Shown: in pieces, positions 46,779-46,924 of the stretch | How the letters are laid out: each line of letters begins with the position of its first letter | Position numbering within the stretch: position 1 is the first letter of the stretch | NCBI GenBank assembly: GCA_020199905.1 | Contig: JAIVJS010000005.1 | Location: forward strand, 18,466-82,465 | Source of the DNA: Acidobacteriota bacterium | GTDB lineage: Bacteria > Acidobacteriota > Thermoanaerobaculia > UBA5066 > Gp7-AA6 | Reading direction: 5' to 3' | DNA: 64,000 nucleotides | Made by a program: the position numbers and the translations under genes | Notes under the pieces: model-generated | What the model was told of the DNA's origin: nothing | The model's database searches: none | The model's input: the letters and a program-made list of their open reading frames with translations, nothing else

Positions 46779-46924
46779 CTGTCAGCTGTCAGCTCTCAGC
46801 TCTCAGCTCTCAGCTGTTCGGGAACTCGTTAGCGCCCTTCGCCTCTGTTGATTCTTTCATCGACTCCAGGACGAAAGACGTCGGGAATCTCTGCTGAAAG
46901 CTGACAGCTGAGAGCTGGTAGCTT
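46779..46924. repeat. inverted pair of heptad arrays between a secreted-protein gene and tnaA
   Basis: Directly after TAG 46776-46778: CTGTCAG twice, CTCTCAG three times, CTGTTCG (46779-46820), the cleanest array in the window. At 46895-46924 the complementary type follows (GAAAGCT, GACAGCT, GAGAGCT, GGTAGCT), so the two arrays can pair into a long hairpin around ~75 nt. Confidence 0.88.

Follow-up and report, generated by a model that had tools for sequence, protein, structure and literature searches.

Cyanobacterial STRR repeats are tandem heptanucleotides, as are the arrays described here. Heptanucleotide repeats are common in bacterial genomes (passages of MacGregor 2015, PMC4679880), and the placement of short bacterial repeats at stop codons is already known. 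According to parts of Di Nocera et al. 2013 (PMC3733652), GTAG/CGTC REPs are short dispersed repeats, many of them paired and mostly 20-100 bp apart, that occur mainly between convergent and same-strand genes, by gene 3' ends, and the termini of GTAG REPs often supply a TAG stop codon; REPs and RAYTs are also treated in passages of PMC2817692. Xanthomonas and Nostoc harbour GGGAATC and GGGGA(C/T)T heptamers, of which some form inverted pairs and four units are preferred in Xanthomonas. As described in parts of Rehm et al. 2015 (PMC4692102), which also cites the heptanucleotides of Calothrix, the GGGAATC heptamers lie mostly within 50 bp of, or overlap, stop codons, and the heptamers occupy the coding strand near the stop and the non-coding strand near the start. 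Direct repeats of TAACTGA have a patchy distribution in Beggiatoaceae, Cyanobacteria and Bacteroidetes; 13 sets overlap stop codons, and the forward units carry stops in all frames (passages of PMC4679880). Lastly, in Geobacter metallireducens, tandem units of 7 or 8 bases, some with a degenerate base, are paired on opposite strands at variable distance and have been proposed, as a hypothesis in that work, to be sites of a global regulator (passages of PMC2700814); those passages say nothing about where the sites lie relative to stop codons.

Here we analyse a 64-kb stretch of a draft acidobacterial genome (hereafter the window), together with further stretches of the same genome. An initial annotation of this DNA had described degenerate tandem heptads anchored at stop codons as a possible 3'-end module used across the genome, and had regarded such anchoring as unfamiliar; it is already in print, in passages on REPs (PMC3733652) and on heptamers (PMC4692102). 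What appears to be novel is the constancy of one geometry under changing unit sequences, and our literature searches of open-licence papers found no paper stating such a unit-independent geometry.

Genome sample and array detection

The source genome of the window is a draft comprising 115 contigs and 3.92 Mb, with a completeness of 92.5%, from which 1.07 Mb (27%) was analysed in stretches from 36 contigs. The sample is biased in that 13 of these contigs were picked for the window or for pattern hits, the other 23 being taken by number, and array density was 2.16 per intergenic kb in the former against 1.0 in the latter (32 arrays in 31.9 intergenic kb). Stop anchoring looked alike in the hit-chosen contigs and in those taken by number, both between tandem genes (44/100 and 8/21 arrays) and between convergent genes (32/49 and 6/8). 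Genes were predicted with our own self-trained, hexamer-based caller, no published annotation being used; 955 were called in the sample, and the 868 scoring above 25 delimited 574 intergenic regions of 20-1000 bp. Dinucleotide shuffles of intergenic DNA provided the null for periodicity, uniform placement of each array within its own intergenic region the null for position, and 30 shuffles per sequence the reference for RNA folding.

Periodicity and arrays in the window

The lag-7 autocorrelation check put forward with the initial annotation returned a clear excess over shuffled intergenic sequence in the 1.07-Mb sample, with a match frequency of 0.3072 compared with 0.2795±0.0012 (z 23.8). 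Excesses over shuffles were also seen at lag 14 (z 12.5) and at lag 21 (z 19.3), the latter being a multiple of the codon period as well, and the lag-7 excess was absent from the coding DNA of the sampled genome (match 0.2664). At a detector score of 10, the 574 intergenic regions held 185 lag-7 arrays compared with 6.2 in shuffles, and at a score of 12 they held 143 compared with 2.4. Other periods gave few arrays: 6-13 at lags 5, 8, 10, 11 and 13 (4.4-6.8 shuffled) and 21 each at lags 6 and 9 (5.8 and 5.4 shuffled) for score 10, falling to 2-5 and to 10 each, respectively, for score 12. In the placement analysis, 198 arrays occupied 150 of the 574 regions, so that the pattern exists in many dispersed intergenic copies.

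Within the window, the detector called 15 arrays in intergenic regions (at least 15 sites in the initial annotation), and TRF reported 20 rows of period 7, which correspond to 18 separate sites and partly fall within ORFs. An Rfam scan of the window matched one tRNA and nothing else. The clearest array was confirmed exactly: behind the T of a TAG stop codon come AG, two units of CTGTCAG, three of CTCTCAG and a final CT. This and the other features of the window are as follows.

46777..46815, plus strand: focal arm of five AGCTNTC units plus AGCT, starting on the AG of the TAG stop codon (46776-46778) of the gene at 46203-46778
46893..46917, minus strand: inverted partner array (GCTGAAAGCTGACAGCTGAGAGCTG), beginning 77 nt past the focal arm; TRF row
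57612..57636, plus strand: AGYTNTC arm on the TAG stop codon of the amidase gene (55976-57613)
38602..38636, plus strand: AGCTNTC arm flush with the TGA stop codon of smpB (38110-38601)
39139..39188, minus strand: array occupying the whole of a convergent intergenic region and sitting on the TAG stop codon of the GGDEF-EAL gene (39187-42423, minus strand)
25874..25904, minus strand: array flush with the TGA stop codon of the NAD synthase gene (25905-27446, minus strand)
25799..25842, no strand assigned: second array in the intergenic region behind the NAD synthase gene, with TCAGTAA-type units; TRF
7762..7792, minus strand: GGCGG-type array overlapping the TAG stop codon of the gene at 7781-8254, to which searches assigned no identity
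7622..7735, minus strand: GGGAA-type arrays plus a copy of a 66-nt conserved core (7670-7735)
7569..7593, no strand assigned: AGAGTTA-type array in the intergenic region 7534-7780
8257..8286, minus strand: array between yebC (8322-9053) and the next gene on the same strand
3001..3028, minus strand: GCGTTGA-type array overlapping the TGA stop codon of the gene at 3026-4150; TRF and detector
2005..2039, minus strand: array bordering a GGGAA-type core element
15932..15962, plus strand: array of the GAGTTGA family, spelled ACTCTGA, with the TGA stop codon of the ORF at 15241-15945 inside it
15871..15935, plus strand: 66-nt GGGAA-type core copy, within the 3'-terminal part of the ORF at 15241-15945
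42462..42491, no strand assigned: AGYTNTC array in a divergent intergenic region
43315..43336, minus strand: array 20 nt ahead of the uvrA start codon (43357)

Of eleven stop codons at which arrays had been proposed, eight have an array overlapping or within 14 nt, namely 46778, 57613, 38601, 39130 and 39187 (one array shared by two genes), 25905, 7781 and 3026. The remaining three do not: the array behind 8322 (8257-8286) starts 35 nt downstream of the stop codon, 31037 is followed by about two units only, and the units behind 49234 are degenerate, both of the last two falling below the array threshold. The ORF ending at 49234 was missed by the gene finder and has a Pfam ThiS match, so that a probable gene escaped our calls.

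Three further observations concern coding sequence in the window. The ORF at 15241-15945 enters the GGGAA-type core with its 3' end and stops on a TGA within the heptad array (15871-15962), and the last residues of its predicted product look element-derived. Behind the focal array, positions 46829-49028 hold several short ORFs in different frames, which may represent a broken gene or assembly errors, and the low-scoring minus-strand ORF at 46829-47224 may be spurious. At 63075-64000, a 276-bp tandem repeat of 3.4 copies lies within a long minus-strand ORF.

Position relative to stop and start codons

Scoring array starts against stop codons, the second check proposed at the outset, gave an enrichment over uniform placement. 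Between tandem genes, 52 of 121 arrays lay within 7 nt of the stop codon on either side, compared with 19.9±3.0 expected, and 21 of 121 lay near the start codon; between convergent genes the count was 38 of 57 compared with 21.1±2.4, any distance up to 7 nt and deeper overlaps being included here, with the nulls treated alike. No array out of 20 in divergent regions was within 7 nt of the nearest start codon (2.0 expected). Altogether 90 of the 198 arrays stand at a stop and the remainder elsewhere. When array-stop combinations are listed outward from the stop, 118 of 235 fall within 14 nt and 54 overlap the stop codon. Thus, the idea of a 3'-end module is borne out as a concentration at gene 3' ends across the genome, and is too narrow in that arrays also occur at start-codon edges.

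The commonest array start relative to the stop codon is -2. Among AGYTNTC arrays whose first unit begins between -9 and +14 of a stop codon, 24 of 59 start at -2, all 24 of them on TAG, and TAG is used at 39 of these 59 stops compared with 219 of 868 genes overall. Over a slightly wider range, a T precedes the first unit of AGYT arrays at 26 of 64 stop edges compared with 1 of 21 start edges, which indicates that the T belongs to the gene and not to the element. On this ground we rejected TAG as the element's own end, and in the same respect the AGYT arrays differ from REPs that carry a GTAG tag. Arrays of the GCGTTGA and GGCGG types can themselves hold a stop codon (TGA, or TAG from GGTAGG), so that an ORF reaching such an array ends in register with it, a point also made for TAACTGA repeats (passages of MacGregor 2015, PMC4679880). 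The proposed 7-bp register between arrays and stop codons therefore holds for a T followed by AGYTNTC (the 24 of 59 on TAG), and elsewhere arises partly from units that bear stops (GCGTTGA, GGCGGTA).

Inverted arms and unit composition

Six unit families account for 191 of 196 arrays, the five unclassified ones being left out of direction counts. Within 20 nt of a gene edge, 118 of 133 arrays run in the one direction of their family, from the edge inward and alike at stop and start edges, where the direction labels are the majority within each family and make the p-value of this test too small; farther than 20 nt from an edge the proportion is 35 of 58. Pairs of neighbouring arrays (n=52), in tests reaching only 12 nt into genes so that overlaps are cut at -12, comprise 38 inverted, 7 direct and 7 tied cases, with 21 inverted partners matching at no more than one mismatch compared with 7.5±2.4 after permutation. 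Even single edge arrays (n=47) find their better match in the rest of the region more often inverted (27) than direct (11). Inward direction and mostly inverted neighbours make the arrays look like the arms of inverted-repeat elements, and the direction rule is what such elements would give when filling short intergenic regions. The common feature of the arrays is that they are inward-facing, often inverted arms; nearness to a stop codon describes them only in part.

Four units are the commonest length (80 of 196 arrays). Both this preference and the direction relative to genes (118/133) resemble the Xanthomonas and Nostoc heptamers, whose unit is nearly that of one of the six families here (CGGGAAT); units of the form GGGANTN are found in one family of six (28 of 196 arrays) and not in the others. 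Passages of Rehm et al. 2015 (PMC4692102) centre on G-quadruplexes, whereas the consensus units of the AGCT, AGTT and GCGTTGA families contain no run of two or more G, and these families keep the direction and unit number of the others. The AGTT family is the reverse complement of AACTGAN; yet TAACTGA repeats lie mostly just upstream of start codons (passages of PMC4679880), whereas the arrays here are enriched behind stops.

Six positions are conserved at 0.88-0.99 across 210 AGCT units and position 5 varies almost freely (G.45, C.34, A.10, T.10), being a position left unconstrained in the array consensus by which the family was defined. Adjacent AGCT units agree at that position in 55 of 152 cases, no more than the 51.7 given by chance, and are thus not fresh slippage copies of each other. 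This bears on plain slippage, by which 7-bp tandem duplications would arise anywhere and survive only outside coding sequence. The general commonness of heptanucleotide repeats in bacteria (passages of PMC4679880) would suit such an origin, as would the AGTT and GGCGG families, in which adjacent units are alike at the variable base beyond independence (34/78 and 33/63, compared with 21.6 each). However, the same handful of units turns up at many unlinked loci, orientation and inverted pairing depart from randomness, neighbouring AGCT units do not derive recently from one another and array lengths peak at four units; plain slippage, already disfavoured by the direction rule, is in our judgement very improbable.

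The same anatomy might be expected of binding sites for a DNA- or RNA-binding protein, with a unit made of a six-base word and one free base, as proposed for the paired tandem sites of Geobacter metallireducens (passages of PMC2700814), which likewise consist of tandem 7- or 8-mers on opposite strands at variable distance. The nearly free position 5 of the AGCT units fits this account, and so does the lack of covariation between the arms of one element: in AGYT pairs, the variable bases of the two arms are complementary in 15 of 56 cases (0.268), below the permuted mean of 0.383±0.053. That result argues that pairing is not what constrains the units in this genome, and arm-arm pairing as the sole constraint was rejected on it for AGYT pairs. 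Many binding specificities would be needed, however, for six families here and a further 29 unit spellings in a distant relative (see below), and the likeness of AGTT and GGCGG neighbours at the variable base also counts against protein sites, which we consider improbable.

Folding and transcription termination

In the source genome, RNA folded modestly better downstream of array stops than in regions without arrays, with a fold z below -2 behind 23 of 85 stops with arrays compared with 37 of 287 array-free regions, and the median behind array stops was only -0.82; in the distant genome G022 the corresponding counts were 23 of 30 and 68 of 152. Taken singly, arrays folded better than their shuffles only if they belonged to the AGCT family, which is self-complementary (median z -2.15); values for the remaining five families were near 0.

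Array density in the sampled genome is highest between convergent genes (3.01 per intergenic kb, compared with 1.73-1.82 in tandem and 0.92 in divergent regions), as would be expected if the arms were intrinsic transcription terminators. Nevertheless, none of 36 convergent array stops and 2 of 50 tandem ones had a hairpin followed by a T-run, a combination also rare at array-free stops (12/126 convergent, 9/247 tandem). One array separates yebC from the gene that follows on the same strand, and G022 shows no convergent excess. With T-runs almost absent at array stops, we rejected intrinsic termination, which appears scarcely tenable as an explanation.

Conserved core and mobility

Many GGGAA-type arrays flank a conserved core of about 58 nt, whose commonest 12-mers each occur in about 20 to 26 regions of the sample. 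A genome search with the 66-nt core copy, in which 40 of 176 first-look candidates were scored, gave at least 47 matches with identities of 88-100%, and sharing of this core suggests that at least the GGGAA-type family spreads as a unit. The 12-mer list of the sample revealed no comparable shared core for AGYT elements, and when array-masked regions were compared all against all, they fell into clusters of 66, 12, 4 and fewer.

A single Y1-type (Y1_Tnp, RAYT-like) transposase gene was found in this 92.5% complete genome (L086 1437-2435, G000:C112). The repeat AGTGTATAATAAAGACCTGACCCC, which is not related to the heptads, flanks this gene on either side, so that no mover was identified, and RAYT-driven spread was rejected as a candidate. 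In this the arrays depart from the RAYT association of GTAG REPs. They also differ in the nature of the arm, a tandem heptad array here and one palindrome with a GTAG tag there, whereas they share with GTAG/CGTC REPs a dispersed occurrence, inverted pairing (38/52) and nearness to gene 3' ends, as well as, in the source genome, a preference for convergent and same-strand over divergent regions; in G022 the preference for stops recurs, with convergent regions no denser in arrays than divergent ones. The arrays are thus probably REP-like in mode of action and are not members of the GTAG-REP family.

Distribution among relatives

The nearest relatives sampled contain almost no lag-7 arrays (1 in 63 regions, 0 in 40 and 0 in 18). 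No array stands behind smpB in any of 19 relatives, nor behind the amidase gene, der, tatC or NDH2 in 3, 7, 5 and 4 relatives, respectively; yebC is without one in 17 of 18, the exception (G010) being a score-10 lag-7 stretch of unrelated sequence. YebC, SmpB, the amidase, TatC and NDH2 end within 8 residues (net) of every relative shown, and Der falls 9 to 82 residues short of four relatives but exceeds three more distant ones by 4. That the arrays create the stop codon was consequently rejected, five of the six genes compared ending within 8 residues net of their relatives, Der excepted. All five tatC relatives shown end in TAG, so that this stop codon apparently predates the array, which was placed against it and uses its AG as the first two bases.

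Of 148 genomes of the class, 15, the source genome among them, contain the exact AGCT pattern; the 18 other genomes of the source's order lack it, and four genomes of a distant genus have 148, 97, 21 and 16 hits. In two distant-genus genomes, from stretches chosen around hits, 6 of 12 AGCT-type arrays start 1-4 nt behind a stop codon or overlap it by 2. A reversed control pattern of TCGA-centred heptads had 65 hits in one genome (G135) and 1-12 in seven others, which suggests yet another unit family.

Such patchiness, including two genomes of a distant genus with 148 and 97 hits, is consistent with selfish dispersed repeats without host function, inserted or surviving mostly at 3' ends since coding sequence, promoters and ribosome-binding sites are intolerant of them. 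The poverty of divergent regions in the source genome, the array-free gene ends of relatives and the family with a conserved core and at least 47 matches point the same way. Tolerance alone, however, would spread arrays through the middle of long intergenic regions instead of producing a peak at the stop, and AGCT units keep six positions while one varies. We regard the selfish reading as possible although somewhat doubtful, and as a close second to the REP-like one.

In the distant relative G022, the architecture and the preference for stops recur with other units, octads included. There, 79 lag-7 and 27 lag-8 arrays were detected in 233 regions (0.3 and 1.7 in shuffles), with 29 unit spellings and four units as the commonest arm. 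Neighbouring pairs are inverted in 32 of 33 cases, 28 of them at no more than one mismatch compared with 5.8±2.1, and arm likeness is 0.960 within elements (n=20) compared with 0.923 between elements of a family (n=122). Arrays within 7 nt of the stop codon number 16 of 54 in tandem regions (7.2±2.2 expected; 4 of 54 on the start side) and 8 of 11 in convergent ones (3.5±1.1), and in divergent regions the count is 3 of 17 (2.4 expected); density between convergent genes, 1.27 per kb, is not above the 1.30 of divergent regions. Inverted octad arrays resembling GGTTGCGC and AGGTCACG lie beside heptad ones in this genome (L121-L126, L182-L201) and recall the octanucleotide sites of Geobacter, with which the arrays share the arrangement of tandem 7- or 8-mers on opposite strands at variable distance.

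Conclusions

We tentatively favour a reading of most arrays as arms of dispersed REP-like elements whose paired arms may form a stem-loop protecting or marking the mRNA 3' end. An element would consist of about four 7-bp units per arm, running inward from the gene edge and often mirrored across the intergenic region; behind stop codons, the arms could pair in the transcript into a stem-loop likely to protect or mark the 3' end. Elements of this kind would spread as units, as the conserved core of the GGGAA-type family and its at least 47 matches suggest, and their position near stops might be kept because it is useful, or because it is where they do least harm.

Pairing, four-unit size and nearness to stops persist as the unit changes, both within the source genome and in G022, which makes explanations by G-quadruplexes or by one regulator insufficient. 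A broader and unlikely proposal is a sequence-agnostic class of bacterial elements defined by geometry (a period of 7 or 8, about four units per arm, one free base, inverted inward arms and the register on the AG of TAG), perhaps written by a templated or repeat-adding enzyme that makes units of fixed length. The G-rich heptamers of Xanthomonas, the TAACTGA repeats of Beggiatoaceae and the Geobacter pairs share unit length, number or placement with the arrays described here; if the proposal were true, GGGAATC of Xanthomonas, TAACTGA of Beggiatoaceae and the Geobacter pairs would each represent one spelling of a common class, and an enzyme writing units of fixed length would explain the steady appearance of new families. 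The determinants of the 7-bp period and of the location behind the stop codon thereby become open to testing.
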